Shown here: one piece after another, positions 3,601-17,410 of the stretch | Position numbering within the stretch: position 1 is the stretch's first letter | How the letters are laid out: every line of letters begins with the position of its first letter | NCBI GenBank assembly: GCA_930980675.1 | Contig: CAKNIU010000021.1 | Coordinates: forward strand, 1 to 17,944 | Source: an uncultured Clostridium sp. | GTDB taxonomy: Bacteria > Bacillota_A > Clostridia > TANB77 > CAG-508 | Direction of reading: 5' to 3' | DNA: 17,944 bases | Program-made: the position numbers and the translations under genes | Notes under the pieces: generated by a model | Databases searched by the model: none | Seen by the model: only the letters and a program-made list of their open reading frames with translations | What the model was told of the DNA's origin: nothing

Positions 3601-3690
3601 TATTTATTCCTCCTGACATTTTGTATAATATATGGTTTACGTAAATTATATTTCAGTCTATTTTCGCATGTAATTTCTAGCAAAGCCTTC

Positions 3691-3704
3691 TGAACTTTTG
3701 TTCG
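3691..3704 (-). promoter_or_regulatory. LexA (SOS) operator over the recN start site
   Basis: Reading the minus strand, CGAACAAAAGTTCA matches the Gram-positive SOS box CGAAC-4-GTTCG except at the last base. It lies 5 bp downstream of the -10 hexamer, where bound LexA would block initiation. recN is a standard SOS gene in Firmicutes, which fits. lexA itself is not in the window. Confidence 0.8.
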
Positions 3705-3709
3705 TTTAT

Positions 3710-3738
3710 ATTATACATACATTTGTTTGGTTTGTCAA
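3710..3738 (-). promoter_or_regulatory. recN promoter
   Basis: TTGACA (3738-3733), 17 nt, TATAAT (3715-3710) on the minus strand, a perfect consensus. The predicted start near 3703 falls inside the LexA box at 3691-3704. The leader is about 100 nt. Confidence 0.85.
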
Positions 3739-3832
3739 GAGTTTTTTTATAAAAGCAACCAATTTTTTTTGAAGCTTCTACCTATTTATTTTTCTATATA
3801 TAATTATTTCTTGAAAAAGTAATTTTTTTAAT

Positions 3833-5818
3833 TTAGGACCTTCCCCAACTGAAAATATCAAAAGAAAAGAAGGAAGTTTTACCTTCCTCCTCCACCACCA
3901 CCGGCCTCCTCCGCCGGCCGCCTCCTCCTGAGAAGCCACCGCCTCCGCCAGAGCCTGATGAGAATGATGATGACATTGCATTACTTACTGACCTAAAACT
4001 ACTTGAAAAGTCCATATGTGACATTATAAATATTGTAGGATATATGCTGTAATCGTAGTTATCGAAGTCAGGATATACAATTTTTAATTCTTTTATTACT
4101 TTTTCTGATATACCAAATGCAGTAGCATATACTAAGTATTTTTCCCATATTGCTAAGTCTGGTACATTCTTTTCTTTAAGAAGTGAAAAGTCTTCCATAT
4201 ACTTTTTAAACGCTTTCCACTTGTCTTGTTCATCTACACCTTCTTGAGTGTATACACTTATTCTTTTATTTGCTCTATTTATTAAAATAAAGTCAACTAT
4301 AAGCCATATTAATGCTATAACTAATAAATACCATGGAATTCCTATGCTATTTACCGTATTTGTAACAAATTCCATATTATCTAGTAAAAATACTAAAACA
4401 AATGGTATAAATACACCAATAGAACAGCCTGCCATATTGGCATTTCTTCTTTTTATTCCTTTTAAATCTAGTATTCTATTTGATGTTAGTTTTGATTTAA
4501 TTGCTTTGTCTATTGCACTTTTTAATGCTACAACTTTTGAACTATTATTGCTTATATATTTTTTTAGCCCTTTCATTGTAATTTCATTTGGATTATCTGT
4601 TTCTTTATTTCCACCGAATACTGATTTAGATTTATTTTTGCAGGCTGTAATTAAAAAGTTTAATATTATTATTTCATCACTGTTAAGACTAACATTACTC
4701 GAATCTTGAGGCAAGATAGTTATTTTGCTATCTTTTTTACCTCCATCTGGAATTTCTTCTATTTTTATTATTTTTTTCAAAGATAATTCTAAAATTGTTG
4801 ATGAAAATACTTGCCCAAGCTCATACTGTGAAAAGCCTTGATATTTATCTGTTAAAATATATAACGCTTCTGCTGGGCTTGCATCTGCTCTTGGTAAATC
4901 TCTAAAATAGTCAAAATGTGTAGTTGGAACTACAGGCTTTACTTTTAATAGTATTCTTATGTTTTTTACCATAAAATATAGTAAAATTCCAAATATAATT
5001 AAACAAACAATAGCACTAACAATAATTTTAAAGATTCTTGAGCTATTTGCATCATTTGCCCATTCATTTTCTTCTTGTAAAATAGTATTTAATCTATTTG
5101 CATTATAAGTTCTTCCTGAATATTCAATTAAATTTCTAGGCATTGCAATTCTTACTTCAACCATTTTTTCTGCTTTATTATTGTTTACTTCAAAGCTTAC
5201 AGTATCATTGCTTGTTTTTGTAATTGTACCATTTAGGTCCGGTGTATGTCCCCAAACTCTTAAATCGTCTAAGTTAGAAACTTCAGCAGGTAATTTTATA
5301 GTTCCTGTAATTTTTTTTGCTGGAATTTCAAAGTCTGAGCCCAAAAACTGCCAATACATTTCTGCACAGTCATTATATAGTGCTATAGCATCTTCTATGT
5401 GATAGCGTATTATATAAGTTTCAGTTGCAGAGTCATATTCATGACCTGTACCCCAAGCTACTTCATAATTGGACCCCATATCTAGTAAATAGTATTCATC
5501 AGTTGGAACATGGTTAGCATACATACCATAATCTTCAAGCGGTATCTCTCTACCCGAGCTACTTATTTTGCTTACACTTCCATCAGTTATTGCAGTATAT
5601 TTACTGCGATCCTTTTTGAACGTTTTAAATAATGTGTTTGTGTCACTTATATCAATATTCCATGTTTCTACAACATCCATTGACCCGTCACTATTAATTT
5701 GTACATCAAAATTTAGACTATTTAAGTATAGGTCTGAACTTGCTTCTACACTATTAAATATTGATATAGCCCCAATTAAAAATACAATCAATATAATTGC
5801 TCTTTTTAAAGTTTTCAT
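3833..5818 (-). CDS. DUF2207 (YciQ-like) membrane protein, C-terminus apparently frameshifted
   Basis: A secreted and membrane-anchored protein of unknown function. Residues 1-26 form a signal peptide. An extracytoplasmic DUF2207 domain follows (about 30-230), then a transmembrane segment (about 263-284), a cytoplasmic region (about 290-460) and two further transmembrane segments (about 463-480 and 494-513). A Ser/Gly-rich tail starts near 615 (SSSFSSGSGGGGGFSGGGG). Family members normally end in a Gly run and one or a few basic residues. Here the frame instead goes into RRRRPVVVEEE and continues for about 27 residues. Removing one C from each of two GGCCGG sites (3914-3919 and 3901-3906) restores an unbroken Gly run ending GGGR at a TAA (3879-3881), in the loop of a terminator hairpin. 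I infer two one-base insertions, real or from sequencing. The start has AAGGGGA about 6 nt upstream. Confidence 0.85.
   Translation of the reverse strand: MKTLKRAIILIVFLIGAISIFNSVEASSDLYLNSLNFDVQINSDGSMDVVETWNIDISDTNTLFKTFKKDRSKYTAITDGSVSKISSSGREIPLEDYGMYANHVPTDEYYLLDMGSNYEVAWGTGHEYDSATETYIIRYHIEDAIALYNDCAEMYWQFLGSDFEIPAKKITGTIKLPAEVSNLDDLRVWGHTPDLNGTITKTSNDTVSFEVNNNKAEKMVEVRIAMPRNLIEYSGRTYNANRLNTILQEENEWANDANSSRIFKIIVSAIVCLIIFGILLYFMVKNIRILLKVKPVVPTTHFDYFRDLPRADASPAEALYILTDKYQGFSQYELGQVFSSTILELSLKKIIKIEEIPDGGKKDSKITILPQDSSNVSLNSDEIIILNFLITACKNKSKSVFGGNKETDNPNEITMKGLKKYISNNSSKVVALKSAIDKAIKSKLTSNRILDLKGIKRRNANMAGCSIGVFIPFVLVFLLDNMEFVTNTVNSIGIPWYLLVIALIWLIVDFILINRANKRISVYTQEGVDEQDKWKAFKKYMEDFSLLKEKNVPDLAIWEKYLVYATAFGISEKVIKELKIVYPDFDNYDYSIYPTIFIMSHMDFSSSFRSVSNAMSSSFSSGSGGGGGFSGGGGRRRRPVVVEEEGKTSFFSFDIFSWGRS
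3860..3891 (-). terminator. Intrinsic terminator of the DUF2207 gene
   Basis: On the minus strand AGGAGGAAG (3891-3883) pairs with CTTCCTTCT (3876-3868) across the 6-nt loop GTAAAA, and is followed by TTTCTTTT. It overlaps the last codons of the frame-corrected gene, with the restored TAA in the loop. This supports a true gene end at 3879 rather than 3833. Confidence 0.65.
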
Positions 5819-5927
5819 ATTTTCCCCTTTGCATTTTGCTTTTATGTAATTGCTGATGTTTAATTTTTCTGTAGTTTCTCACCAAGTCAAAATGCTTTTT
5901 TAATATTATTATTTTATTCTCACAATT

Positions 5928-5956
5928 ATATTACACTATTTTTATTTTTTTGTCTA
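5928..5956 (-). promoter_or_regulatory. Candidate promoter of the DUF2207 gene
   Basis: TAGACA (5956-5951), 17 nt, TAATAT (5933-5928) on the minus strand. The match is fair and gives a leader of about 100 nt before the start at 5818. No riboswitch was recognised in that leader. Confidence 0.45.
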
Positions 5957-5997
5957 TGGGAAGTGAAATAAAATTTACCTTGCTTATTATTTTGTGG

Positions 5998-6065
5998 TTT
6001 TTTGTCTTGTATCTTTTTATCTCGAATCTTTTATCTTGCATCTTTTTGTCATATATCTTTTTGAA
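5998..6065. repeat. Degenerate 14-15 bp tandem repeat
   Basis: Four imperfect units follow a partial one on the plus strand: 6007-6021, 6022-6035, 6036-6050 and 6051-6065, sharing a core like TTGNATCTTTTTATC. The array begins in the last codons of the COG2865-type fragment and runs past its stop codon. Confidence 0.55.
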
Positions 6066-6410
6066 AAGTTACAACAAAATCTTCTCTTTCATTTGTAAAT
6101 ACAGGCTCTGGCAGATTTGCTTCTTTCATCTTTTTTTGCATAGTAAAAATTCCTGTATGTCTATTTTCAATTATTCCACCTAATGTTTCTAACAGTTTTA
6201 CAATAGTTTCATTTCTTACTTCCATTGCTTTCCTAGTTTCTAATAATTCAATTGTATTAGAACCATATAAATTTCCAACATTTCTAAATTCTATTCTATT
6301 TCTGTAAAAGCAACCATATTGAAGTAAAATTTCTTCATCGCTAAATTCTGCAAATTTAGGTTTATCTGCCTTAGCATTTACAATAAATTTGCTAATACTG
6401 GACTTATTAC
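6049..6410 (-). pseudogene. C-terminal fragment of a COG2865-type ATP-binding regulator (HATPase_c_4/AlbA_2)
   Basis: Translating the minus strand in the frame ending at the TGA at 6049-6051 gives about 115 residues with no start codon of their own. The diagnostic run is RNRIEFRNVGNLYG, then IVKLLETLGGIIENRHTGI, then EANLPEPVF and FVVTF. That pattern is typical of the C-terminal ATPase-like and winged-helix part of AlbA_2/HATPase_c_4 proteins, which elsewhere read RIEI-NPGGLYG, EN-GSGIP, GLPEPEF and FKVTF. The AlbA_2 N-terminal domain and most of the ATP-binding half are missing. The 5' end merges, in a different frame, with the truncated intron reverse transcriptase at 6378. I infer a deletion that joined the two remnants. 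No function is expected. Confidence 0.6.
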
Positions 6411-6847
6411 TCCTCCTTGTGGTGTTCCTGCTGTTCTTTCTACTATTGTTCCATCTTGCATTTTAAATGGTGTTTTTAGCCATCTTTCTATGTACAGAAC
6501 TATCCATTGCTCATTCGTATGTCTTTTGACCATTTCAATTAGATAGTCATGTCTTATATTATCAAATAGTCCTTTGATATCAAAATCAACTACCCAATCT
6601 TTTCTCCAACATCTTTCTCTTAATACTCCTATTGCTTGTATTGCTGATTTATTTGGTCTATATCCATATGAATCTTTATAAAATATTTTCTCTACATTTG
6701 GCTCGAGGTATATCTTGGCTACCATTTGTGCTATTCTGTCCTCAACTGTTGGTATACCCAGAATTCTAGTTCCACCATTTTTCTTTGGTATTGCTACTGC
6801 TTTTACTGGTTTTGGAAAATATTCTTGAACGGTTTTGTTTCTTCCAT
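6378..6847 (-). pseudogene. Group II intron-encoded reverse transcriptase, internally deleted and truncated
   Basis: An ATG at 6847 starts MEETKPFKN, the usual N-terminus of an LtrA-like intron protein. That frame stops after 14 codons. In another frame, directly after, the protein resumes as EYFPKPVKAVAIPKKNGG, LGIPTVEDRIAQMVAK and SYGYRPNKSA. Then come FDIKGLFDNI (domain with the first catalytic Asp), LYIERWL and TPQGGVISPVLANL (domain 4), ending at a stop at 6378. By comparison with the family, roughly 60-70 codons are missing after residue 8, and everything from just before the catalytic YADD onward is gone. TPQGG-ISP identifies it as a group II protein and not a diversity-generating retroelement, where that motif is altered. 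Inactive. Confidence 0.85.
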
Positions 6848-7376
6848 AAGTTTCTCCTATTTCTAGTTGACTTATTTATACAAACTGATAACTCCAAGCC
6901 CTTCGCTCCATTCCCATTACAGAATTTTCTTCACTACTACGGCTTGGTCTGCCCCTATGACTACATTGGTACTCTTATCTTGTAGTTTCTGCTACTTGAT
7001 ATACTCCCTTAACATTAGCCCGTAGGTTCTCACGTTCCGTATAAACGCCCATATTATGTTCATGCCACCTTTGTACCGTCCATCATCTAGCCAGTAACCA
7101 GGTTTCCACTAGACTCTGTCTCAAAGCAAACTGCCATACTTTGATTTTGATGGAATTTTGCACTTTTCGATACTTTCATAAGTGGTTCATTTGGTCTTTC
7201 ATCTCCATAATACACACCTGACAACTTTTGTTGCCTTTTCTCTAACGCTCAATACCATATCTTTTGAATACAGCATCTTGGAGTGGTTTGCAGGCTTCAC
7301 CTGAATAACGCCTGCGGTAGGTCTACTACCATCATTTATACAGTTCCAAAAATCTTTTGACTTTTTCGTGACACAC
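6378..7376 (-). mobile_element. Group II intron, 5' part only (3' truncated)
   Basis: The minus strand from 7376 begins with a group II 5' end, GTGTGTCACGAAAAAG. About 520 nt of intron RNA sequence (domains I-III) follow, including the conserved-looking stretch with TGTAATGGGAATGGAGCGAAG near 6915-6895, and then the intron-encoded protein opens at 6847. The rest of the reverse transcriptase, the maturase region and domains V and VI are absent, so the element cannot splice or move. The 5' exon junction lies about 80 bp beyond the stop codon of the pilin-like gene. Domain assignment is by resemblance, not by folding. Confidence 0.8.
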
Positions 7377-7456
7377 GCTATTTAGTACAGTGCTAAGATT
7401 ATTATTTTTTCATTATAACCAAACTAGAGCAGTTACTATTAAACTGTAACAAGAAA

Positions 7457-8563
7457 TCATTCTAGAAATAAGCAAACACGAAATCCATAGAAATCAGTAA
7501 TTACATCTGTTGCCGTATTACGAAAACCGGCTGGATAATCATTAAAAGAACTTCCATATCCTCCGCCTCGTGATACAGGCTGGTTCAAAGGACTATAAGC
7601 TTCTGAAGAAAGCTCCCATACATTTCCACCTAAATCATATATATTGCAAATGCTTGTTGTTAATCCTGTTGGAACGAGGATTCCATCACCATCTTCTTTT
7701 TCTTTTTCTTCCCCATCTATATCAATATATTTAAATGATCTATCTTTATAATTTCCCTGTGGAGAACTAAGTGCATAATTTTTTTCGACTTTACTTATAA
7801 ATGTTACTGCTGCATCATATGCATAGCTACTACATAATCTAGTATTTACAGAAGAATATCCCTGCTTTTCTTTCATATCATTTGATAATATTATTGCTTG
7901 TTCTACAGATATATAATTATATGGCACTTGTCCTCTTCTTATTGAAATAGTATTATCACTACTTGAGTTTTCGTCTCTATATGTTCTATTATGAGTGCTT
8001 TCATAATCACCTGCTTCATATCTTCCAATATAATATCCACCATATTTTTGTATGCTTTCACTTTCGATATCAGATAGAGTTTCATGATATGTTGAGTAAA
8101 GTCCTGCTTGTATCCCAAAATCAATTCGTACATAATTATCTATATTAACTGGCACCCATACAAATTCATTTCCTTTTGAATCTATTATTACCAATCCATC
8201 ATCAACTGTATTTTCTCCTTCTACTTGTGATACTGCAAATTCTGCTGGTATTATAACTTTATCTTCATTTTCATCTATATACTCATAACTCTCAAAATGT
8301 GTAGCTGCTTCAGCTTGTGTTAGTTTTCTCAGTTCAACTTCTTCTGCTTCTTCTGTTTTAACCTTTGCCTCTTGTGCTCTAGTTAATATTCCATTATCTC
8401 CAGTCAATGTGGCAATACTCACTCCAGCTAGTATTAGCAAAACTATAATAGTGACTACGAGCGCTATAAGTGTTATACCTTTTACTTGTCTTTTCAACTT
8501 TTTTATTGTAGTTTTGTGCTCTTTTACATTTGTGTTCTTTTGACTTTCTTCTTTAATGTTCAT
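7457..8563 (-). CDS. Prepilin-like N-terminus with C-terminal formylglycine-generating-enzyme (SUMF1) fold domain
   Basis: A probable surface protein. After a basic cytoplasmic head comes KGITLIALVVTIIVLLILAG, a prepilin peptidase site (cut between G and I) with a hydrophobic helix, followed by LTGDNGILTRAQEAK, a stretch common in clostridial pilin-like proteins. Position +5 is Ala, not the usual Glu. The C-terminal half carries FGE-sulfatase landmarks: EFVWVPV, GGYYIGRYEAG, GGNVWELSSEA, SRGGGYG and a terminal GFRVCL. This fold often acts as a C-type-lectin-like ligand scaffold, so I infer a displayed binding protein rather than an enzyme. The frame opens at 8584, but GGGAG lies inside it, 11 nt before the ATG at 8563, which I choose (368 residues). 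A long leader with a terminator-like hairpin precedes it. The intron remnant lies about 80 bp downstream. Confidence 0.88.
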   Translation of the reverse strand: MNIKEESQKNTNVKEHKTTIKKLKRQVKGITLIALVVTIIVLLILAGVSIATLTGDNGILTRAQEAKVKTEEAEEVELRKLTQAEAATHFESYEYIDENEDKVIIPAEFAVSQVEGENTVDDGLVIIDSKGNEFVWVPVNIDNYVRIDFGIQAGLYSTYHETLSDIESESIQKYGGYYIGRYEAGDYESTHNRTYRDENSSSDNTISIRRGQVPYNYISVEQAIILSNDMKEKQGYSSVNTRLCSSYAYDAAVTFISKVEKNYALSSPQGNYKDRSFKYIDIDGEEKEKEDGDGILVPTGLTTSICNIYDLGGNVWELSSEAYSPLNQPVSRGGGYGSSFNDYPAGFRNTATDVITDFYGFRVCLFLE

Positions 8564-8660
8564 TTTTTTAAATTCTCCCTTCATTTGTTTTTTAAAATGT
8601 TAAAATACTATACATAAAAATTTTTATTTTGCAATTGTTTTTAATTGCATTTAATAAATA

Positions 8661-8711
8661 AAAAAACTACGCTAATTAGACATTTTAAATACGTCTAAAA
8701 AGCATAGCTTT
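8661..8711 (-). terminator. Intrinsic terminator inside the pilin-like gene leader
   Basis: A two-part hairpin on the minus strand. The outer stem AAAGCTATGC/GCGTAGTTT (8711-8702 with 8672-8663) has two G-U pairs; the inner stem TAGAC/GTCTA (8697-8693 with 8681-8677) encloses an 11-nt loop. A run of seven T follows. It lies between promoter and gene. Confidence 0.65.
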
Positions 8712-8751
8712 ATCTCTATGTTTGCTTATTTTTATTTGGTTAAATCTTACG

Positions 8752-8772
8752 ATATATATATATATATATATA
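8752..8772. repeat. AT dinucleotide microsatellite
   Basis: Uninterrupted alternating AT for 21 bp, inside the transcribed leader of the pilin-like gene and able to fold on itself. Such tracts change length by slippage, so leader length could vary between strains. Confidence 0.85.
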
Positions 8773-8841
8773 CAGCCTCAAGGCTTTCAGCGATTTTCAT
8801 GTTTGTTTTTACCTTTCTATTTCAATTTTTGTTCTATTATT

Positions 8842-8870
8842 TTTATACATTTAATTTTTGTTTTTGTCAA
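8842..8870 (-). promoter_or_regulatory. Promoter of the pilin-like gene
   Basis: TTGACA (8870-8865), 17 nt, TATAAA (8847-8842) on the minus strand, a near-consensus sigma-A site. The start near 8836 gives a leader of about 270 nt. Confidence 0.75.
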
Positions 8871-8898
8871 TCCCTAATGTTAATTTTTCATTAAAAAT

Positions 8899-8927
8899 TG
8901 TATTTTCGCCATTTTTATTGTATAATA
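8899..8927 (+). promoter_or_regulatory. mutS2 promoter
   Basis: TTGTAT (8899-8904), 17 nt, TATAAT (8922-8927). The start near 8934 leaves a leader of about 24 nt with the ribosome-binding site AAAGGA at 8943-8948. It is arranged back to back with the pilin-like promoter. Confidence 0.7.
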
Positions 8928-8957
8928 CCTAATATACAAGCGAAAGGAACAATTACA

Positions 8958-11189
8958 ATGTTTAATTTAGACAAATTAGAATTTAATAATATACGTGAAA
9001 ATTTAGCAAATTATACTCAAACTAATGAAGGAAAGAATTTAGCATTAAGTTTAGAGCCTTCTTCAAAAACTATGGAAGTCAAGTCTTGGCTTAGCGAAAC
9101 CAATGAATGTTTGCAAATTAGAAATATTAAAGGTGAATTACCTATTTCACAAATAGATGATGTAAGTTATCTTATAAAAAGCTTAAAGAGCTCTCTTTCA
9201 TTATCCTCAAAAGGTTTACTTGAAATGAGCAATATTTTAAGAATTGCAAGAGAACTTACTGAATATATTAAAGATTTAGAAACACCATTACCTACTTTGC
9301 AAGATTATTTTTCTATGCTTTATTCAAATAAAGATATTGAAAATAAAATAAGTTCATGCATTATTTCTGAAGATACCATTGCTGACAATGCTTCTCAAAA
9401 ACTTTATATCATTAGAAATAGTAAAAAAGCTTTAGAAAGTGACATTAAAAATAAACTAAATCAAGTTATGCATCAAAATAGCAAATATATAATGGATCAA
9501 GTTATTACTATTAGAGATGGCAGATATGTTATACCTGTAAAAGATGAATACAAGAGCTTTGTAAAAGGCTTTATTCATGATACATCAAGTAGTGGTTCTA
9601 CCGTTTACATTGAGCCAATGGCTGTTTTTGAGATTAATAATAAAATAAATAATTTAAGTTTAGAAGAAAACAAAGAAATTGAAAGAATTTTAAGTAAGCT
9701 TTCTAGCTTACTTTACCCTATTGTTTATCAAATGGAAAAAGATGTAGAGGTTATTTCTAAGCTTGATTTTATAAACGCAAAAGCCAAACTTGCTATCGAA
9801 ATGGAAGCAAATTTACCTATAATTTCAAATGAAATAAATTTGATTAAAGCAAGACATCCTCTAATTCTAAAAGATAAAGTTGTTCCAATAGATATTTATG
9901 TTGGCAAGGATTTTACTACATTAGTTATTACTGGTCCAAACACTGGTGGAAAAACTGTTAGCTTAAAAACTGTAGGTTTACTTTGCCTTATGGCTCAGTC
10001 TGGCTTATTTATACCTGCTGAAGAAAATTCTACTGTTAAAATATTTGAAAATATATTTGCAGATATCGGTGATGAGCAAAGTATTGAGCAGTCTTTAAGT
10101 ACATTTTCTAGCCATATGACTAATATTGTAAAAATTGTAGAACAAGTAAATGATAAAAGTTTAATTTTGGTTGATGAATTAGGTTCTGGTACTGACCCAA
10201 TAGAAGGTGCAAATTTAGCTTTAGCACTTCTTGAATATTTTCATAACCAAGGGGCTATTACTGTTGCTACAACCCATTATCATGAAATAAAAAATTATTG
10301 TATAACACATGATGGATTTGAAAATGCAAGTTGTGAATTTGATATAGAAAAATTAGAACCTACATACCACTTGCTTATAGGTATTCCCGGCAAAAGCAAT
10401 GCTTTTGCCATAAGTAAACGTTTAGGACTAAAACAATCTATTTTAGATAGAGCAAATAATTTAATGGAAAAACCTGATACAGATGTTGAAACTTTAATGA
10501 AACAAATTTATGATGACAGAATTTCCATAGAAAATTTGAAAAAAGAAGAGGAAAAAAATCTTAATCAAGTAACTCTTTTACGAAAATCTCTAGAAAAGCA
10601 ATTATCAGATAAGCTAGCTCATGAAGAAGAAAAAATAGAAAAAGCTAAAAAAGAAGCTCGAGAAATACTACAAGATGCAAAAGACGAAGCTAATAGAGTA
10701 ATAAGAGAATTAAATGGATTAGGCTCAAAAGATTTGAAAAAAGCAAATGAATTAAGAAATAAATTAAATAGTGATTTAAAAGAAACTGAATCAAATCAAG
10801 GCTTAGATTTAAGTGTTTTGTTAAAATTAAATAATCAAGAAACTAATAAGCCAAGTGGTCAAAATTTAGGAAATGTTAAAAATTCATCTCAATATAATGT
10901 TCATACAAAATCTTCTGTGCATATTTCAAACACTTCTGCATATGACGTATCCCCTGAAATAAATCTTATTGGTGAAAACGTAGATACTGCAGTAATGGCA
11001 CTTGATAAATATTTAGATAACTGCACAATGGCTCACTTAAAACAAGTTAGAGTAATTCACGGTAAAGGCACTGGCAAGCTACGTGAAGGCATACACAATT
11101 ACTTAAAGAAATCTAAATATGTTAGTTCATACAGAATTGCTGGATTTGGTGAAGGCGACTATGGTGTAACAATTGTGGAGTTAAAATAG
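8958..11189 (+). CDS. mutS2: Endonuclease MutS2 / ribosome-collision factor RqcU
   Basis: MutS-family ATPase lacking the mismatch-recognition domain. In Bacillus subtilis it acts on collided ribosomes; older work links it to suppression of recombination. Visible features are a coiled-coil core domain (about 50-290), Walker A GPNTGGKT (326-333) and Walker B LILVDELGSGTDP (402-414). Next come the dimer-interface histidine region ATTHYHEIK and a long charged coiled coil (about 510-620). The C-terminal Smr domain (about 665-743) carries NLIGE and HGKGTGKLR. The frame opens at 8898, but that region is the promoter. The ATG at 8958, 9 nt after AAAGGA, gives 743 residues (B. subtilis has 785) and begins MFNLDKLEF as in homologues. 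Confidence 0.96.
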   Translation: MFNLDKLEFNNIRENLANYTQTNEGKNLALSLEPSSKTMEVKSWLSETNECLQIRNIKGELPISQIDDVSYLIKSLKSSLSLSSKGLLEMSNILRIARELTEYIKDLETPLPTLQDYFSMLYSNKDIENKISSCIISEDTIADNASQKLYIIRNSKKALESDIKNKLNQVMHQNSKYIMDQVITIRDGRYVIPVKDEYKSFVKGFIHDTSSSGSTVYIEPMAVFEINNKINNLSLEENKEIERILSKLSSLLYPIVYQMEKDVEVISKLDFINAKAKLAIEMEANLPIISNEINLIKARHPLILKDKVVPIDIYVGKDFTTLVITGPNTGGKTVSLKTVGLLCLMAQSGLFIPAEENSTVKIFENIFADIGDEQSIEQSLSTFSSHMTNIVKIVEQVNDKSLILVDELGSGTDPIEGANLALALLEYFHNQGAITVATTHYHEIKNYCITHDGFENASCEFDIEKLEPTYHLLIGIPGKSNAFAISKRLGLKQSILDRANNLMEKPDTDVETLMKQIYDDRISIENLKKEEEKNLNQVTLLRKSLEKQLSDKLAHEEEKIEKAKKEAREILQDAKDEANRVIRELNGLGSKDLKKANELRNKLNSDLKETESNQGLDLSVLLKLNNQETNKPSGQNLGNVKNSSQYNVHTKSSVHISNTSAYDVSPEINLIGENVDTAVMALDKYLDNCTMAHLKQVRVIHGKGTGKLREGIHNYLKKSKYVSSYRIAGFGEGDYGVTIVELK

Positions 11190-11381
11190 AGTAGGAACTT
11201 TGGCCCCTACTCTTTACCCTGTTTTAGTATTTAAAAATACAAGGCTAAGGATTTCCTCTTTACATATACCCTATTTTAATACTATTCCTAGTATAAGGCT
11301 AGGGGTCTCCTCTTAATCATACCCTAACTTTTAGGCTTAGGGATTTCCTCTTGTAATATTATAAAATATTACATTAACAGT
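11183..11381 (-). ncRNA. Putative small RNA with three tandem repeat hairpins
   Basis: A consensus minus-strand promoter (11388-11416) fires into about 200 nt without a reading frame, ended by the hairpin at 11189-11212. After an AT-rich 8-bp hairpin (11372-11353) come three units at 11352-11320, 11314-11267 and 11260-11215, period 52-53 bp. Each unit reads AAGAGGA[AG]A, then a stem strand like TCCCTA, GCCT, an inner stem, TAAAA, then TAGGGTA closing the stem. The inner stem is ATACTA/TAGTAT in unit 2, GTATT/AATAC in unit 3 and absent in unit 1: different sequence, pairing kept. Outer stems are CCCTAA/TTAGGG, CCCTA/TAGGG and a weaker CCTT/AGGG. The purine-rich linkers resemble Shine-Dalgarno or protein-binding sites. 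I do not recognise the class. Confidence 0.6.
11189..11212. terminator. Bidirectional terminator between mutS2 and the repeat RNA
   Basis: GAGTAGG (11189-11195) pairs with CCTACTC (11206-11212). On the plus strand it follows the mutS2 stop directly and leads into TTTACCCTGTTTT. On the minus strand the stem extends to 8 bp and leads into ATTTTAA, ending the repeat-hairpin RNA. Confidence 0.6.
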
Positions 11382-11387
11382 ATAATC

Positions 11388-11416
11388 ATTGTACTACCTT
11401 TTTATACCAATGTCAA
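11388..11416 (-). promoter_or_regulatory. Promoter of the tandem-hairpin RNA
   Basis: TTGACA (11416-11411), 17 nt, TACAAT (11393-11388) on the minus strand. It lies just past the stop codon of the gene at 11434-12111 and points away from it into the repeat units, so it has no protein gene to serve before mutS2, which is on the opposite strand. Confidence 0.7.
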
Positions 11417-11433
11417 GATATTTTTTATATTTC

Positions 11434-12111
11434 CTACACTCTTCTCAAGCAATTTCTAAATTGTCTTTGGCAAGCACAAGTTCTGCAAGCAGTTGTATTA
11501 GGGTCACCATTTCTCAAAGTGCCACACCCACAATTCCAATTGTTTCCGCTTCTATTCTGCAAGCCATTATTTGAATTGCAACATGAGCAATTGTCACTAT
11601 CATCATTTTGTGCATTTATACTGTCAGCCAATTCGTCAATACTATTGCTCAAAGCCACAACATTCTCATTAAAACAAGCTAAATTTCTGCTAAAACCATT
11701 ATTTCCATTGCAACAATTTGATCCACTTCTGTTGTTACCACTTCTATCATTTCCATTATTACATAATGAACATCTACCCTCACCTGTTCTTGAATTATTA
11801 CAATTATTGCAACAAGATGAATTATTATCACCGGCTCTTCCGCTTCCGTTATCACCTATAAAGTTTATTTCTATAGACCTATTAGCAATTTTGCAGAAGA
11901 TACTAACAATGTATGCCGTAATCAGCGCTATAATTGCATAAATAAATGCAGCTATTAAGAAACTTACTCCATATACAGTAAATGTAACAATTAAGAAAAT
12001 TGCTAAAACAATTGCTGATACTAAGTATGGGTTACAAAGTATTTTTTGTAGAGCAATTGCAAAAATTATAGTTGCAATAGGAAATATAAATAAAAATAAA
12101 ATTATATCCAT
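11434..12111 (-). CDS. DUF2651-like membrane protein with Cys/Asn-rich C-terminal tail
   Basis: Function unknown. Residues 1-75 hold three hydrophobic helices and resemble the small DUF2651 (YbeF-like) proteins, which are normally about 80 residues. Here a 150-residue hydrophilic tail is added, low in complexity and rich in Asn, Ser, Gly and Cys, with 17 Cys, many in CC or C-x-C pairs. The last part, WNCGCG followed 12 residues later by CRTC, looks like a zinc ribbon. A short helix-forming stretch (FNENVVALSNSIDELADSI) interrupts the low-complexity part. AAGGGGAT lies just before the ATG. It follows truA with a long inverted repeat between them. Many Cys suggest a cytoplasmic metal-binding tail or a disulphide-rich exported one; topology is not decided. 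The family call is moderate. Confidence 0.7.
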   Translation of the reverse strand: MDIILFLFIFPIATIIFAIALQKILCNPYLVSAIVLAIFLIVTFTVYGVSFLIAAFIYAIIALITAYIVSIFCKIANRSIEINFIGDNGSGRAGDNNSSCCNNCNNSRTGEGRCSLCNNGNDRSGNNRSGSNCCNGNNGFSRNLACFNENVVALSNSIDELADSINAQNDDSDNCSCCNSNNGLQNRSGNNWNCGCGTLRNGDPNTTACRTCACQRQFRNCLRRV

Positions 12112-12157
12112 ATTATCCCCTTGTATATTTTATGTCAATCTTACGATTTTTGACACT

Positions 12158-12249
12158 AAAATTCCAATATACATTCTCTCACATTTCACGGCGCTGGTCG
12201 CTGCTTGCTCCAGCTTGTGAAATATCGAGAACATATATTGGAATATTTT
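12158..12249. repeat. Long imperfect inverted repeat (about 90 bp hairpin)
   Basis: Paired blocks from outside in: ATTCCAATATA (12161-12171) with TATATTGGAAT (12234-12244), TTCTC (12174-12178) with GAGAA (12227-12231), ATTTCAC (12183-12189) with GTGAAAT (12217-12223), and GCTGG (12193-12197) with CCAGC (12210-12214). It lies 3' of truA and ends in a short T run on the minus strand, so it could terminate the operon. It is far longer than an ordinary terminator and may be a dispersed palindromic element. Confidence 0.7.
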
Positions 12250-12251
12250 AA

Positions 12252-13007
12252 TTAACTCGTTAAATTGACATCATCATACTCCACATTAACCAAATATAGT
12301 CCCGTAGGTGGCAATGTTTTTCCTGCCCTTAGCCTATCTTTTGCATCCAATATTTCTTTAACATCAAAAGGCTCTATCTTTCCTATACCAACATCTACTA
12401 AAGTTCCCGCAATTATTCTTACCATATTATACAAAAAGCCATTTCCAGTAAGTTCAATGGTTACAATTTCACCATCTCTTGTAACTTTAGCATCATATAT
12501 TGTTCTTACACTACTTTTGCTACTTGTACCACTTGCTTTGAATGATTTGAAATCATGTTCACCTATTAAGTATTTTACTGCTTCATTCATTTTATTTTCG
12601 TCTAATTTTTCTGGAAAATGATATTGCAAATATCTATAAATTGCGGTTCCTTGAACAGAATTATTTATTACATATCTATATGTTTTCTTTTTACAAGTAT
12701 ATCTACTATGAAATTTTTCTGGTACTTCTTCTGCCTGTTTTATTCTAATAGATTTTTTTAGTTTTGAGTTTAATGCATATGGCATTTTTTCTATTGGAAA
12801 ATCTTTTTCTAATCTAAAATTTGCTACTTGGCCAGTAGCATGTACTCCTGCATCAGTTCTACCAGATGCAATTAAGTCTACTTTTTCTCCTGTTACTTCT
12901 TCTATGGCTCTTTCAATCTCTCCTTGTATATTTAGCTTATCTCTTTGTTTTTGCCATCCATTAAAGTCTTTTCCATCGTATTCAATTGTTAATTTTATAT
13001 TTCGCAT
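12252..13007 (-). CDS. truA: tRNA pseudouridine(38-40) synthase TruA
   Basis: Isomerises uridines 38-40 in the anticodon stem-loop of many tRNAs. Family landmarks are IEYDGKDFNGWQKQ near the N-terminus, the catalytic Asp52 in SGRTDAGVHA (48-57), the FHSRY/KKKTYRY segment, HDFKSF, and GNGFLYNMVRIIAGTL near 190-205. Its 251 residues are typical. The start overlaps the end of cdaA by 26 bp, which points to one transcript and translational coupling. No mutation in key residues is visible. An inverted repeat follows its stop. Confidence 0.97.
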   Translation of the reverse strand: MRNIKLTIEYDGKDFNGWQKQRDKLNIQGEIERAIEEVTGEKVDLIASGRTDAGVHATGQVANFRLEKDFPIEKMPYALNSKLKKSIRIKQAEEVPEKFHSRYTCKKKTYRYVINNSVQGTAIYRYLQYHFPEKLDENKMNEAVKYLIGEHDFKSFKASGTSSKSSVRTIYDAKVTRDGEIVTIELTGNGFLYNMVRIIAGTLVDVGIGKIEPFDVKEILDAKDRLRAGKTLPPTGLYLVNVEYDDVNLTS

Positions 13008-13905
13008 TTTGCTTTTCAGCCTTTCTGTCTTCCCATTTTTCTTTCATTTTATCTATTTTACTAACTCTTTGTTCTGAGCCAAATTTAGCTGTAACCAAGT
13101 TTTTAATTAAAATGCGTTTAAGTGCATCCTCTTTGACATCTGCAATTAATGTACCATCTTTTGCTATTGATATTTTTCCTGTCTCCTCTGAAACTACTAC
13201 TGCAATTGCGTCAGATTCTTTAGATATACCTATAGCAGCTCTGTGCCTTGTACCTAGTTCTCTTGCAATGTCTTTATCGTCTGCAAGTGGCAATATACAA
13301 GCTGCTGCAGTTATTTTGTTATTACTTATAACTACTGCTCCATCATGAAGTGGTGTTTTGGGTACAAATATATTTACTAACATTTGTGGAGATATTTCTG
13401 CATCTAATTTTATTCCGGTTTCTACAATATCTTGAATTTTTATATCTCTTTCAAATACTATTAAGGCACCTGTTTTTGATTTAGACATTTCCTCTGCTGC
13501 AATAACTACTTTGTATATGTCTTCTTTTGTTTTGTCTCTTAAGCTTTTGTCCATACCAAACAATCTTGTAAATGTTCTTGAACCGAGTTGTTCTATTGCT
13601 CTACGTAGTTCTGGTTGGAATATAATTAAAAGTGCAATTACTCCATAGCTCATAAATGATGTTAATATAAAATATAGTAATCTTAGTTCAAATAAATTAC
13701 TTAAAATTGTTATAATTACAAGCAAAACTATACCTTTTATTAATTGCCATACCCTCGACTTTTTAGCTACCTTTATGAAGTAAATTAGTAAAAATATAAC
13801 TATTGTTATGTCTAAAACAAAAGTAACAATTTGCCAAGGATGCGAACTTAAATCACTTATATAGTCTGCAAAATCAAAATTTAGATTTGATAAATTTTCA
13901 AACAT
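12982..13905 (-). CDS. cdaA: Diadenylate cyclase CdaA (c-di-AMP synthase)
   Basis: Makes cyclic di-AMP from two ATP at the membrane; the messenger controls potassium and osmolyte balance and wall homeostasis. Three transmembrane helices (about 24-44, 54-72 and 75-98) precede a DAC/DisA_N domain with the catalytic DGA (188-190, in LHDGAVV) and RHR (220-222, in GTRHRAA). The 307 residues exceed the 270 or so usual because of a charged C-terminal tail (about 280-307). A weak AAAGAAG site precedes the ATG. In most Firmicutes cdaA is followed by cdaR (YbbR domains) and glmM. Here truA overlaps its 3' end instead, so any CdaR must be encoded elsewhere. The promoter is probably that at 14337-14365. 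Confidence 0.96.
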   Translation of the reverse strand: MFENLSNLNFDFADYISDLSSHPWQIVTFVLDITIVIFLLIYFIKVAKKSRVWQLIKGIVLLVIITILSNLFELRLLYFILTSFMSYGVIALLIIFQPELRRAIEQLGSRTFTRLFGMDKSLRDKTKEDIYKVVIAAEEMSKSKTGALIVFERDIKIQDIVETGIKLDAEISPQMLVNIFVPKTPLHDGAVVISNNKITAAACILPLADDKDIARELGTRHRAAIGISKESDAIAVVVSEETGKISIAKDGTLIADVKEDALKRILIKNLVTAKFGSEQRVSKIDKMKEKWEDRKAEKQNAKYKINN

Positions 13906-14024
13906 TTTATACTTCTTTTAATATACTCTTTGTTCAGTAACGTTGATTTTATGCTATATAATTTTTGAATATATTAAAACTCCTTTTTTATATTTAGGTT
14001 TTTTCATGGGATTTGCCTATAAAC

Positions 14025-14228
14025 CTAGTTTAAATACCACATTAAGTAAAATATTAGTGTAGCTGATGAAGCTAATAATAAACAAATAACAATTATTAAA
14101 GCTACTAATCTTCCTAAGTTTTTCTTTACATTAAATTTTTTGTGATCTCTTTTTTTTGATTTATTTTGTTCACTTTTTTCTGTTAAAACTTCTTTTTCTT
14201 CTATTTTATTTTTATTTCTTTTTGCCAT
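14025..14228 (-). CDS. Small basic single-pass membrane protein, hypothetical
   Basis: Of 67 residues, the first 40 are very rich in Lys, Glu and Asn (MAKRNKNKIEEKEV), followed by one hydrophobic helix (about 42-64, VALIIVICLLLASSATLIFYL) and a four-residue end. The layout recalls small tail-anchored or SecE-sized proteins, but SecE motifs are not evident and I assign no function. AAGGA lies 7 nt before the ATG and a perfect consensus promoter about 110 bp upstream, so it is likely expressed. It is probably the first gene of the transcript carrying cdaA and truA. Similar TAGGT hairpin sequences flank it on both sides (13993-14025 and 14250-14275). Confidence 0.7.
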   Translation of the reverse strand: MAKRNKNKIEEKEVLTEKSEQNKSKKRDHKKFNVKKNLGRLVALIIVICLLLASSATLIFYLMWYLN

Positions 14229-14336
14229 TTTTTAATCCTTGTATGTTTATTTAGGTTTTTATTGGACCTATAACCGTTTTATATTTAAATTTTTATATAT
14301 TGGTTTGTACTGACTTTTAACCCTATATATAATTAA

Positions 14337-14365
14337 ATTATAATTAAATTGTTCATTATTGTCAA
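14337..14365 (-). promoter_or_regulatory. Promoter of the small-protein/cdaA/truA operon
   Basis: TTGACA (14365-14360), 17 nt, TATAAT (14342-14337) on the minus strand, a perfect consensus. The start is expected near 14330, with a leader of about 100 nt before the 67-residue ORF. The mnmA stop lies about 50 bp upstream. Confidence 0.8.
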
Positions 14366-14413
14366 TAATCGCTCATAATAATCTTTGGAGTTGAGTATGA
14401 TTAGCATCATCGC

Positions 14414-15457
14414 TTAATGTGATAATATTTTTCCTCCACCTAAAACAACATCTCCATCATAAAACACTACTGATTGTCCTGGGGTAATGGCTCTTTGAGG
14501 TTCATCAAAAATTACTCTTGCATAACCTTTAGTAAGTAATATTATTTTTGCTGGCTTAGGCTCAGCAGCATATCTAATTTTTGCATTCACTTTTATTCCT
14601 GTTTTTACATTATCTACTAACCAATTAATATCTGCTGCAAGTAAGCTATCTTTATATAAATCTTTTTCTTCTCCCACTATAAGCTCATTTTTTAATTTGT
14701 TAAAATCTATTACAAACAAAGGAACAGGATTTGATATGCCTAGACCCTTTCTCTGACCAATTGTATATTTGTATAATCCATTATGCTTCCCTAATATATT
14801 TCCTTTTTTATCTACTATATTGCCTTCTTTTGGTTTAAACTTAGCTTTTTTCTCTAGAAATTCTTTATAATCTCCATTGGGTATAAAGCAAATATCCTCA
14901 CTATCTGGTTTATTTGCAACATCTAGACCATATTTTTTAGCTATTTCTCGTATTTCTTCTTTACTCTCAAATTTTCCTAACGGAAATATAGTATGATTCA
15001 ACATTTCTTTTTTAATATCATATAACACATAGCTTTGGTCTTTTTGGATATTATTTGCCTTTTTTAAAACATTAGCATTATATTTATCATCAAATTCTAT
15101 TTTAGCATAATGACCTGTTGAAATATAACTACACTTCAACTCTTTTGCTCTTTCATACATGAATCCAAATTTCATAAATTTGTTACAAACAATGCAAGGA
15201 TTTGGCGTGGTACCACTTCTATATCCTACAATAAAATTTTTGATAACAAAGTCCTTAAAATCATTTCTTAAATCTAAAAAAGTAAAAGGAATTTGTAATT
15301 TTTTGCATACCTTTCTTGCATCTGAGGCATTTTTTGTATCATCTCCCCAAAGCAACATATTTACACCTATTACGTCATATCCTTGCTCTTTAAGTAGAAT
15401 AGCTGAAACAGAACTATCTACTCCTCCACTCATACCTAATAAAACTCTTTTATTCAT
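14414..15457 (-). CDS. mnmA: tRNA-specific 2-thiouridylase MnmA
   Basis: Adenylates and thiolates U34 of tRNA-Lys, tRNA-Glu and tRNA-Gln in the cytoplasm, taking sulphur from a cysteine desulfurase that is not in the window. The PP-loop is MSGGVDSS (9-16). The catalytic Cys pair is Cys88 in NPCIVCN and Cys190 in SEDICFIP. Other landmarks are TGHYAKI, KDQSYVLY and the GQRKGLGI segment, with the usual C-terminal beta-barrel ending GQSVVFYDGDVVLGGGKI. Its 347 residues are typical. AAAAGG precedes the ATG by 9 nt. It is divergent from ssrA. Confidence 0.97.
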   Translation of the reverse strand: MNKRVLLGMSGGVDSSVSAILLKEQGYDVIGVNMLLWGDDTKNASDARKVCKKLQIPFTFLDLRNDFKDFVIKNFIVGYRSGTTPNPCIVCNKFMKFGFMYERAKELKCSYISTGHYAKIEFDDKYNANVLKKANNIQKDQSYVLYDIKKEMLNHTIFPLGKFESKEEIREIAKKYGLDVANKPDSEDICFIPNGDYKEFLEKKAKFKPKEGNIVDKKGNILGKHNGLYKYTIGQRKGLGISNPVPLFVIDFNKLKNELIVGEEKDLYKDSLLAADINWLVDNVKTGIKVNAKIRYAAEPKPAKIILLTKGYARVIFDEPQRAITPGQSVVFYDGDVVLGGGKILSH

Positions 15458-15493
15458 TTTTAATAACCTTTTTATAATTATAAATTCTACATA

Positions 15494-15499
15494 ATTATA
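15494..15499 (-). promoter_or_regulatory. Candidate -10 box of mnmA
   Basis: A TATAAT on the minus strand about 37 bp before the mnmA start. The -35 region is poor (TGGTAA at 17 bp), so this is a weak call based on position. Confidence 0.4.
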
Positions 15500-15541
15500 T
15501 CATAAAGTTATTAAGTTTACCATAATTTTTTGTAATTTTAT

Positions 15542-15570
15542 TTGCTATCTTTCATAAAATATAGTATAAT
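15542..15570 (+). promoter_or_regulatory. ssrA promoter
   Basis: TTGCTA (15542-15547), 17 nt, TATAAT (15565-15570). The primary transcript would start near 15577, about 50 nt before the mature tmRNA 5' end, which fits 5' processing by RNase P. Confidence 0.65.
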
Positions 15571-15628
15571 AATAAGTGTATGCTTAATTTGCTGTCAATT
15601 TATATAAGGTTACACTCAATATTTACAC

Positions 15629-15987
15629 GGGGGTGTAAATGGTTTCGACAGTTATTTAGAAGTATTTATAGCGAGTAGTGGATGGTTGCTTTGGCCACTT
15701 AAAATCAAGCAAACTAAATATAAAGGCTAACGATAGAGAATTAGCTTACGCTGCTGCCTAAGGCTCAGCGTCGCCTTACCCAAGAGCCTACTGCTTGGAA
15801 TAAGACGTCGACAAAAGTAGGAAACAAAGTTGCTTATTCCATTTAAGCAATGGGTATTTTAAATGGATATAAATAAAATGCTTTGTTCATTTGCTATTTT
15901 ATTTAGAATTTTAAAAATGAACTGCACTCGGAGAAGTAAATATGGAAAAATAATTGGACGCGAGTTCAACTCTCGCCACCTCCACCA
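15629..15987 (+). ncRNA. ssrA: Transfer-messenger RNA (tmRNA)
   Basis: Rescues stalled ribosomes together with SmpB and tags the unfinished protein. The tRNA-like part is formed by the 5' end GGGGGTG (15629-15635), the conserved TGGTTTCGACA segment, and the 3' end with a TTCAACTC T-loop followed by CACCTCC that pairs with the 5' strand; ACCA is encoded (15984-15987). The mRNA-like part starts at GCT 15726 and reads ANDRELAYAAA, ending at TAA 15759-15761. It is a one-piece tmRNA of about 359 nt. The tag ends in AAA instead of the commoner LAA. A bidirectional terminator lies at 16054-16082. smpB is not in the window. Confidence 0.96.
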
Positions 15988-16053
15988 ATTAATTATTATG
16001 TAAATTTTACTTATAAATATAATAAGTGTTAATCGATATTATATAAGCTTACA

Positions 16054-16086
16054 AAAAGGTATGAGCTTTGCTCACACCTTTTATTT
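16054..16086. terminator. Bidirectional terminator between ssrA and the dGTPase gene
   Basis: AAAAGGTATGAGC (16054-16066) pairs with GCTCACACCTTTT (16070-16082), 13 positions with one A-C mismatch and a TTT loop. T-rich sequence follows on the plus strand and a run of five T on the minus strand, so it can end both ssrA and the convergent dgt-like gene. Confidence 0.8.
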
Positions 16087-17294
16087 TAAAAATGTATAAT
16101 TTCATTGTACATATCAATTGCAAATTTATCTGTCATACCAGATATATAGTAAATAATTGCTTGAATATAATCTTCTTTTTTATTAATATCAAAAACGACT
16201 TTATTTTTCAATCCTTCACGTTTACCTATGTTCCAATATTTCTCTATCCAACTATAAAAATTATTCAATAAATTAGGATAATATTTAGCCATATTTCTAA
16301 TTTTATTTGGTGTATTTTCTCCATCATAAGTATCCTTTAATATATCAAATATTTGATTTATTACTATTTCAAAATATTTATTGGATGGATTCATTCTTTT
16401 AGCACCATAAATGTATTTATAGTTAAAAACTTTTATTTTGTCCATCATTTCAATAGCTTCTTTTGAAAGTCTTATGCCTTCTTCCGGTGAAGAGTTTTTA
16501 CAAATATCTGTTACCAATGTATTTATTATAGCAGAATTGCTGGTTTTGCTAGTAATACCTGTAATGTCTGATAATTCATTTAACATATCCTCTGTCAAAA
16601 AATTTTCTTCTATGGCATCTTCTATATCTCTTCCTAAATATGATATTTTATCTGAAACCTTTACTATGCAGGCCTCCCAAGTAAAAGGAGCATATTCATT
16701 TGGTTTTGTATAATTATTTAAGTCTATTGCTTCTACTCTAGGCTTTATACTATTTTCATCTATTTCACCACAATGTGAAATTATGCCATCTCTTACTGCA
16801 TAAGTTAAATTTAAATTTTGCTTATTTCCTTCATAGTCATCTAAAAGTTCTACATTGTCAACTATATTAAGACCATTTTGCTCATGCCAAAATGGTTTGC
16901 CTAGTTCTCTTTGAGATATACTTGATAAAATTTTTTCGCCTTTATGTCCAAAAGGTCCATGCCCCACATCATGCCCACAAGCAATAGCTCTAGTAAGTTC
17001 ACTATTTAATCCCAAATAATTTGAAATAGTATAACTTATAGATTCAACATAATTTACATGCTCTATTCTTGTAGAAATATGGTCATTTTCTGGTGAAAAG
17101 AATACTTGTGTTTTATGTTTTAGTCTATTATAAGCGTTTGTATGCAAGATTCTATTAAAATCTCTTTCGAAAGGGGAACGTATATCTCCTGGTTTTGAAT
17201 AAAGTTCTTGCTCTCTTTTTATCATTTGATTCCATTTTGGATTATTTTCGTTTGCTGAGTAGTTTTTAAATAAATTTTTATTTTCCATAATCAT
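16086..17294 (-). CDS. dgt: dGTP triphosphohydrolase-like HD-domain protein
   Basis: Predicted to hydrolyse dNTPs to nucleosides and triphosphate, controlling the dNTP pool. N-terminal FERDFNRILHTNAYNRLKHK matches the dGTPase pattern of Phe-x-x-Asp-x-x-Arg. The HD metal site is visible as RIEH, then GHDVGHGPFGHKGE. Further landmarks are the SHCGE motif in DGIISHCGE and VKVSDKISYLGRDIEDAIE, which supplies the last metal-binding Asp. The frame is open to a TTG at 17345, but the only good ribosome-binding site (AGGAGAG, 17340-17334) lies inside that extension. I choose the ATG at 17294 (402 residues). A perfect 10-bp hairpin separates the two. The specific substrate is unproven; some relatives act on other dNTPs. 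Confidence 0.9.
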   Translation of the reverse strand: MIMENKNLFKNYSANENNPKWNQMIKREQELYSKPGDIRSPFERDFNRILHTNAYNRLKHKTQVFFSPENDHISTRIEHVNYVESISYTISNYLGLNSELTRAIACGHDVGHGPFGHKGEKILSSISQRELGKPFWHEQNGLNIVDNVELLDDYEGNKQNLNLTYAVRDGIISHCGEIDENSIKPRVEAIDLNNYTKPNEYAPFTWEACIVKVSDKISYLGRDIEDAIEENFLTEDMLNELSDITGITSKTSNSAIINTLVTDICKNSSPEEGIRLSKEAIEMMDKIKVFNYKYIYGAKRMNPSNKYFEIVINQIFDILKDTYDGENTPNKIRNMAKYYPNLLNNFYSWIEKYWNIGKREGLKNKVVFDINKKEDYIQAIIYYISGMTDKFAIDMYNEIIHF

Positions 17295-17340
17295 TGTGGC
17301 ATAAATACATTTTAATTTATTATTTATGCCAAACTCTCCT
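17295..17340 (-). promoter_or_regulatory. Shine-Dalgarno site separated from the start codon by a hairpin
   Basis: On the minus strand AGGAGAG (17340-17334) is followed by TTT, then GGCATAAATA (17330-17321), a 13-nt loop, TATTTATGCC (17307-17298), ACA and the ATG at 17294. The 10-bp stem is perfect. Folded, it brings GGAG to about 8 nt from the ATG; unfolded, the gap is about 40 nt. An ATG in the loop is out of frame. Confidence 0.6.
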
Positions 17341-17382
17341 CTCAAATATTTTTATAAATAATTTTAGTAACTTGCTTCACCT

Positions 17383-17396: not shown

Positions 17397-17410
17397 TGAT
17401 TTTTTATTTA

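Follow-up and report, generated by a model that had tools for sequence, protein, structure and literature searches.

A Candidate Type III Antitoxin RNA Array Without Its Toxin Gene Beside mutS2 in an Uncultured Clostridium

Introduction

Convergent to the mutS2 gene of an uncultured Clostridium sp. lies a short array of tandem repeats, and the question that this locus raises is what such a free-standing repeat RNA would be for and which molecule it would bind. The array is carried on the minus strand of a 17,944-nucleotide stretch of DNA (GenBank assembly GCA_930980675.1, contig CAKNIU010000021.1, positions 1 to 17,944), referred to here as the window. An earlier, sequence-only reading had described it as a small RNA gene of three tandem hairpins belonging to no named class, and had suggested that it might titrate a protein in the manner of CsrA or Hfq sponges. 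Comparison with related genomes indicates that it very probably encodes the antitoxin of a type III (ToxIN-type) toxin–antitoxin system from which the toxin gene has been lost, that is, a toxin-less toxI array. The protein for which the array evolved is most likely a ToxN ribonuclease, because in relatives such arrays stand directly upstream of ToxN. Type III loci are described as running in the order promoter, repeats, terminator, toxin, with ToxIN repeats of 34–36 nucleotides (PMC5086642).

The Array and Its Toxin-Bearing Relatives

Relatives were fetched through mutS2, which yielded 30 loci, all from metagenome-assembled genomes, and the downstream flanks of 29 were inspected. Two of them, L001 and L010, carry at the same mutS2 locus a TTGACA-17-TATAAT promoter, three units and the same terminator, followed by an open reading frame (ORF) before mutS2. 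This ORF encodes ToxN (Pfam ToxN_toxin, E 1.7e-44 in L001 and 9.8e-47 in L010); PADLOC matches both as AbiQ, and among solved chains the L001 product matches ToxN 2xd0 and 4ato at 1.4e-17 and AbiQ 4glk at 6.8e-14. The counterpart of the terminator lies between array and toxN in both loci. Because the same promoter, units and terminator stand upstream of ToxN in L001 and L010, the window array is read as the antitoxin component of a type III system, and the verdict that it belonged to no named class is superseded.

The toxin gene is absent from the locus: no toxN lies between the array terminator and the mutS2 stop, so that the locus does not hold a complete type III system. Locus L003 has the same promoter, a single unit, and a terminator abutting mutS2 at the window's junction, the stretch absent from it being exactly units 1 and 2. 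Since L003 has the same junction, an assembly error of one genome is unlikely. The features of the window array and its neighbors are as follows.

11411–11416, minus strand: −35 box TTGACA, read from the sequence and identical in L001, L003 and L010
11388–11393, minus strand: −10 box TACAAT, which is TATAAT in L001, L003 and L010
11353–11372, minus strand: 5′ leader hairpin GTAATATT/AATATTAC ahead of unit 1; arrays of relatives are preceded by similar hairpins (by eye)
11315–11352, minus strand: putative antitoxin unit 1, 38 nucleotides, a predicted pseudoknot without a loop-2 hairpin; stem 1 AGG/CCU, stem 2 CCCUAA/UUAGGG
11261–11314, minus strand: putative antitoxin unit 2, 54 nucleotides; stem 1 pairs 11311–11309 with 11298–11296, stem 2 pairs 11304–11300 with 11273–11269
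11294–11289 with 11284–11279, minus strand: loop-2 hairpin of unit 2
11214–11260, minus strand: putative antitoxin unit 3, 47 nucleotides; loop-2 hairpin GUAUU/AAUAC, stem 2 weakened by an A.C at its inner end and a U.G inside
11188–11213, minus strand: Rho-independent terminator at the array end, 11 pairs of which five are G-C
11187–11190, no strand: junction at which toxN is missing; the terminator overlaps the mutS2 stop, and L003 has the same junction
8958–11189, plus strand: mutS2, convergent neighbor (name and start codon inferred; stop TAG at 11187–11189)
11434–12111, minus strand: cysteine-rich membrane protein gene (Pfam DUF2651), upstream neighbor on the array strand

By sequence, the array has two hallmarks of a ToxI-like gene, namely tandem short repeats behind their own promoter and a Rho-independent terminator after them. 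The promoter (TTGACA-17-TACAAT, 11416–11388, minus strand) matches 11 of 12 consensus bases and scores best of the promoter-like sites in 10900–12300, which number nine against 7.3 (standard deviation 2.7) in shuffled sequence; as such sites are not enriched, the promoter call relies on how well it scores and on its conservation among relatives. Terminator-like sites number one, against 0.5 in shuffles. The minus-strand fold of the array region has a z of −2.6, with 4 of 200 shuffles equally good, and the plus-strand fold a z of −1.5. At E up to 1, a covariance model of the unit class, whose training set included the window units, finds exactly these three units in the window, with 68.2, 56.1 and 38.0 bits. 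More independent support comes from the recurrence of promoter, units and terminator in L001 and L010, and from a longer unit pattern (see below) whose reversed form matched nothing in 390 genomes.

Much of the sequence-only description holds. The promoter, terminator and three minus-strand units are present, the units starting with AAGAGGA[AG]A at 11352, 11314 and 11260; the inner stems are as it gave them (ATACTA/TAGTAT in unit 2, GTATT/AATAC in unit 3, none in unit 1); and a free minus-strand RNA gene of about 190–200 nucleotides remains the predicted product. Its period of 52–53 describes the spacing of the TACCCT motif and not the unit starts, which are 38 and 54 nucleotides apart. Missing from it were the possible AGG/CCU pseudoknot pairing, the 5′ hairpin at 11372–11353 and the overlap of the terminator with the mutS2 stop. 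Its suggestion that the repeated units would bind a protein fits the placement of relatives' arrays directly upstream of ToxN, although this context points to the ToxN ribonuclease as the bound protein, rather than to CsrA or Hfq. A sponge RNA of that type would account for AGGA-containing segments repeated on a free RNA; it is nonetheless very improbable, given that the conserved AGG fits a pseudoknot stem and that arrays of this class adjoin ToxN (no search for CsrA or Hfq was made).

The array matches no Rfam family at gathering score. At E up to 10 it gave six matches, every one below gathering and unrelated, and at E up to 0.5 ten ToxN-bearing loci gave two sub-gathering matches, both in L121 and on the strand opposite the array.

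Pairing in the Putative Antitoxin Units

The units share a common order of AGG, the 5′ strand of stem 2, GCCU, a hairpin or short A-rich loop, and the 3′ strand of stem 2, in which stem 1 (AGG/CCU) and stem 2 would cross in an H-type pseudoknot arrangement. The inner stem of the sequence-only reading is thus the loop-2 hairpin, and its internal-loop GCCU would form stem 1. The structure set comprised 44 units from 18 arrays with 23 distinct cores, and alignment A1 holds 41 distinct units (the 44 less three repeated). Three spurious regular-expression places were dropped and one L120 unit was added by hand; window_1 and L109_1 sit one column out of register in A1, and the units of G252, G288 and G364, found by the covariance model R1 alone (see below), stand outside the unit counts.

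Stem 2 positions 2–5 are paired in 92 of 92 cells across the 23 distinct cores, in forms that include CCCUA/UAGGG, UUCCUA/UAGGAA, UUCUCUA/UAGAGAG, UUUCCA/UGGAAA and ACCUA/UAGGU. Over positions 1–6 the paired cells number 117, where 2000 shuffles average 102.7 and reach 112 at most; positions 6 and 7 are mostly unpaired (paired in 9/23 and 7/23). For the whole structure on A1, 85.3% of cells are paired, compared with 78.3% when shuffled and at most 61.7% when slid. Ten pairs in A1 are changed on both sides, as many being reached in 1 of 500 shuffles, and the covariation score of 0.176, against 0.096 when shuffled, is attained by none of 500 shuffles. The loop-2 hairpin shows both-sided changes in five of its six pairs. 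Both stem 2 and the loop-2 hairpin therefore show compensatory changes, which bears out the earlier claim of selection on RNA structure.

Several points temper this structural picture. Further pair types in A1 do not exceed shuffles (22 against 20.6; 144 of 500), and the shuffle control is lenient, as units are related within arrays and between relatives. The stem 2 register was partly set by the analyst, by hand for five units (window_3, L109_3 and three of L121), and RNAalifold alone recovered four stem 2 pairs and no more. Only 3 of 22 distinct long loops individually beat shuffles at p < 0.05, and the L118 long loop has a 3-base-pair stem only; because the other 19 are not significant singly, the loop-2 hairpin rests on changes across species. 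Stem 1 is possible in nearly all units yet almost invariant, and for that reason has no covariation support of its own. Its pairing is plausible by sequence, so that the AAGAGGA segment, previously taken as unpaired, need not be so, its AGG fitting stem 1 with GCCU.

The Associated ToxN Clade

ToxN is widespread in the family, with matches over the Pfam threshold in 126 of 292 genomes and in 13 of the 29 genomes of the fetched mutS2 loci, while the L010 ToxN as query finds matches in 133 of 390 genomes at E ≤ 1e-15. The 14 closest ToxN proteins among these 390 genomes (L108–L121; 55–99% identical to L010 ToxN) all have this unit class upstream, in arrays of 2–4 units with at least one long-loop unit each. 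A toxin-blind unit pattern, matched in 11 of 390 genomes against none for its backwards control, led to the same clade: nine of the 11 matches lie beside a closest-clade ToxN, and the other two, in G003 and G118, lack a full toxin. A shorter 15-base pattern was less clean, with nine matches and four backwards in 14 genomes. Pattern matches in G004 and G001:C12 were set aside, as they look to be inside a protein-coding gene (by eye). The 13 matches on viral contigs, all single, were likewise rejected: no second unit lies near any of them, 12 lack a 5-base-pair second arm, and the one that has it (L038) stands at the start of a reading frame (by eye).

The toxins of this clade differ from most other ToxN in a short motif. 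All 14 read EHPR where most others read SSPK, TSPK or FSPK; in E. coli ToxN, T52, S53 and K55 of this motif are reported as active-site residues (PMC8860590). A scan of 83 ToxN loci (L053–L135, some of them second copies) found 17 with EHPR, 51 with other motifs and 15 without a motif match. The 17 are the 14 plus L083, L095 and L097, which are second copies, and the 51 gave 52 motif matches, none of them EHPR. Of 101 database relatives, 86 read EHPR; ESPK or ESPR stands in four and EHPI in one, and in ten the motif could not be read. Toxin motif and unit type go together.

Arrays Without a Toxin

Model R1, a covariance model of the window unit class, was run on 390 related genomes, and for comparison a second model, R2, was built for a sister class of GGTGAATCCAGCC units; counts from both refer to a drawn part of the bacterial family, and the R1 search used filters that lose weak matches. 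R1 arrays were found in 20 of the 390 genomes. Fourteen are those of the ToxN clade, one of them (G060) with an in-frame stop. Counting the window as well, there are 21 arrays: ToxN is uninterrupted in 13, carries the stop in G060, and is missing or broken in the other seven. By tblastn and by eye, the ToxN remains of the other six genomes range from none (G003), a few residues (G288, by eye), about 13 residues (G009, E 0.16) and about 35 (G118) to a C-terminal piece (G252) and N-terminal and middle pieces (G364). Most of the arrays that R1 recovered had been in its training set, which counts against the independence of this census.

The sister class gave 45 array loci in 43 of the 390 genomes. 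In 28 of them the ToxN match spans 145 or more of 161 query residues (22 found by tblastn, six in other ToxN searches), including G045 and G192, with an in-frame stop or shortened frame. Three loci are cut by contig ends, and 14 of the 42 decidable loci lack a full ToxN (eight with none, six with a partial match; tblastn with three ToxN queries). For eight of these 14 the array call depends on one model match each (E 6e-7 to 2.6e-4), among which a chance match is possible, and G017 and G172 have only about 0.4 kilobases of contig downstream. Given the same loss in several relatives, antidote RNAs left without a toxin may be widespread yet overlooked.

These counts also bear on the possibility that the repeats are a mobile or dispersed DNA element without RNA function, and the sequence-only reading had itself named a dispersed repeat without covariation as the finding that would overturn it. 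Tandem repeats do lie beside other palindromic repeats in some relatives, yet R1 matches occur in just 20 of 390 related genomes, the listed matches of each genome lie in one array, compensatory changes are seen, and no scattered single copies without promoter or terminator were seen among them; such an element is hardly credible here.

Decay or Retention of the Window Array

In the proposed mechanism, the minus-strand promoter would yield an RNA of roughly 190 nucleotides comprising the 5′ hairpin, three putative pseudoknot units and the terminator. By analogy with known ToxIN biology, a minority of transcripts in relatives would read through the terminator into toxN; the toxin would cleave the RNA between units, and the resulting pieces would keep it inactive. 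In the window, the RNA may protect in trans against ToxN-type toxins of incoming elements or other loci, or may be a slowly decaying relic. No toxN lies within the window, a point against the antitoxin reading, though a copy elsewhere in the genome is possible.

That the array is a decaying remnant, functionless after toxin loss and lasting until deletion, with the terminator alone perhaps kept since it serves mutS2 too, is a serious possibility, if still short of probable. Changes found only in the window affect the −10 box (TATAAT to TACAAT), the terminator (two), a linker, and, in unit 3, the end of stem 2 and the hairpin loop region; all of these could mean decay. The loss of exactly units 1 and 2 from L003 points the same way, as do the lower unit numbers of window-class arrays without a full toxin (1–3, vs. 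2–4 in the 14 with ToxN). Downstream of mutS2 in L004, a lone hairpin much like the array terminator remains with no units left (by eye), possibly the last stage of decay.

Low divergence of the array argues against simple decay, although constraint before the loss, or transfer, could partly explain it. Of 139 array positions, 6 differ between window and L003, whereas in mutS2 54 of 207 fourfold sites do (p 3e-8). A pair with a toxin is similar, the window and L010 differing at 8 of 231 array positions vs. 29 of 171 fourfold sites. The arrays of L003 and L010 differ at 2 of 141 positions, a closeness that recent transfer would explain as well as constraint. The clearest case of constraint comes from a two-unit array of the sister class:

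L208, 1207, plus strand, and L215, 1220, reverse strand: toxin-less array immediately ahead of a gene that resembles dCMP deaminase (named by eye)

Between these two genomes there are 0 of 120 differences from the array to the start codon of the adjoining gene, compared with 11 of 46 fourfold sites in that gene (24%) and 46 of 162 just upstream (p 3e-7). This identity favors selection there, with the caveats that it is one pair, that stem 2 of the second unit is mismatched (by eye), and that the stretch is the gene's leader too.

The same case bears on a kept function, in which the RNA would act as an anti-addiction or anti-abortive-infection agent that disarms ToxN from other elements or loci. 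This reading is possible but rather doubtful. For it speak the roughly one third of decidable arrays, in both classes, without a full toxin, the unchanged L208/L215 array, the reported suppression of ToxN by phage pseudo-ToxI repeats (PMC5086642), and the presence of ToxN relatives on 187 of 72,556 plasmid records (none reaching 60% identity to L010 ToxN) and 2 of 50,697 phage records. Against it, the clear constraint is a single case in two genomes; the Pectobacterium and Bacillus pairs are reported to show no functional cross-talk (PMC5086642), so that protection may be narrow; and no ToxN match was found in the G003 and G009 assemblies, which are possibly incomplete. For the window array itself, neither a kept antidote nor slow decay is clearly favored.

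Comparison With Known Type III Systems

The candidate toxin-less toxI array resembles the ToxIN systems of Pectobacterium, Bacillus and E. coli, and AbiQ/antiQ of Lactococcus, in its promoter, tandem units and terminator, in the ToxN of its relatives, in its predicted H-type pseudoknot topology and in the A-rich joints between units. It differs in the missing toxin gene at the locus, in the additional hairpin that some units carry within loop 2, in the EHPR motif of the clade toxins as opposed to the SSPK, TSPK or FSPK of most ToxN here, and in its dissimilar units of 38, 54 and 47 nucleotides, which depart from the near-identical repeats of 34–36 nucleotides that are described for ToxIN (PMC5086642). 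AntiQ activity is reported to need at least 1.8 repeats (PMC5086642). CptIN of Eubacterium rectale, another type III system, shares the chromosomal locus in a gut bacterium and a 45-nucleotide repeat with a long A-rich loop 2, CptI being a 45-nucleotide H-type pseudoknot (PMC4627078). The toxins here, in contrast, match the ToxN family (Pfam PF13958 and solved ToxN/AbiQ chains), and CptN is not among the four solved chains matched. The sister class is alike in its pseudoknot topology by sequence, its position upstream of ToxN, its occurrence in the same bacterial family and its frequent lack of a full toxin; its aligned units, however, are 31–32 nucleotides long without a loop-2 hairpin, and the motifs of its toxins are of SPK type (e.g., in L053).

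Orphan antitoxins are reported as abundant in Klebsiella, where type II and IV antitoxins without a toxin have been proposed to play an anti-addiction role or to be remnants (PMC7192599). Those antitoxins are proteins, whereas the window antitoxin would be an RNA, which protein-based searches miss. The published catalogues consulted detect type III systems by way of their toxin protein (PMC5086642, PMC6504116), and TASmania is described as unable to detect RNA antitoxins (PMC6504116), so that a lone RNA antitoxin is missed by design. A literature search of incomplete coverage turned up no published account of type III arrays that lack a toxin.

If about a third of the family's arrays have outlived their toxins, ToxIN loci would turn over fast, and the surviving RNAs could make their hosts immune to ToxN-based addiction or abortive infection. 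The clade would also provide a naturally varied set of pseudoknots that carry an inserted hairpin, together with an altered toxin active-site motif, for the study of co-evolution between an enzyme and its RNA inhibitor. A more far-reaching combined proposal is unlikely as a whole: that toxin-less type III antitoxin RNAs are common, selectively kept stand-alone antidotes against ToxN in this clostridial family, invisible to toxin-based catalogues, and that the clade of EHPR toxins and loop-2 hairpins is a distinct lineage whose unlike units may fill defined positions in the toxin–RNA ring.

Other Features of the Loci

A small hydrophobic peptide ORF of about 46–52 amino acids lies next to toxN or replaces it at this mutS2 position in L010 (1741–1899, minus strand), L006 and L001 (the last by eye). 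It has no Pfam match over cut-off and is reminiscent of type I toxin peptides. The 3′ side of mutS2 looks like a hot spot for small toxin–antitoxin genes. Near-perfect palindromes with the ends GGGACGGTCC and GGACCGTCCC occur downstream of mutS2 in L001, L002, L006, L007 and L009 and before the array promoter in L010; these recurring intergenic palindromes are probably a small mobile repeat.

Elsewhere in the window, a 375-amino-acid ORF (7457–8584, minus strand) has a prepilin-like N-terminus, and its C-terminal part resembles formylglycine-generating-enzyme-like domains (both by eye). A match to a group II intron domain (Rfam RF01999, E 1e-21) lies at 7216–7330 on the minus strand, and a nearby ORF of 115 amino acids (6378–6725, minus strand) looks like a reverse-transcriptase fragment (by eye). 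A transfer-messenger RNA gene (Rfam RF00023, E 5e-69) occupies 15629–15987 on the plus strand.

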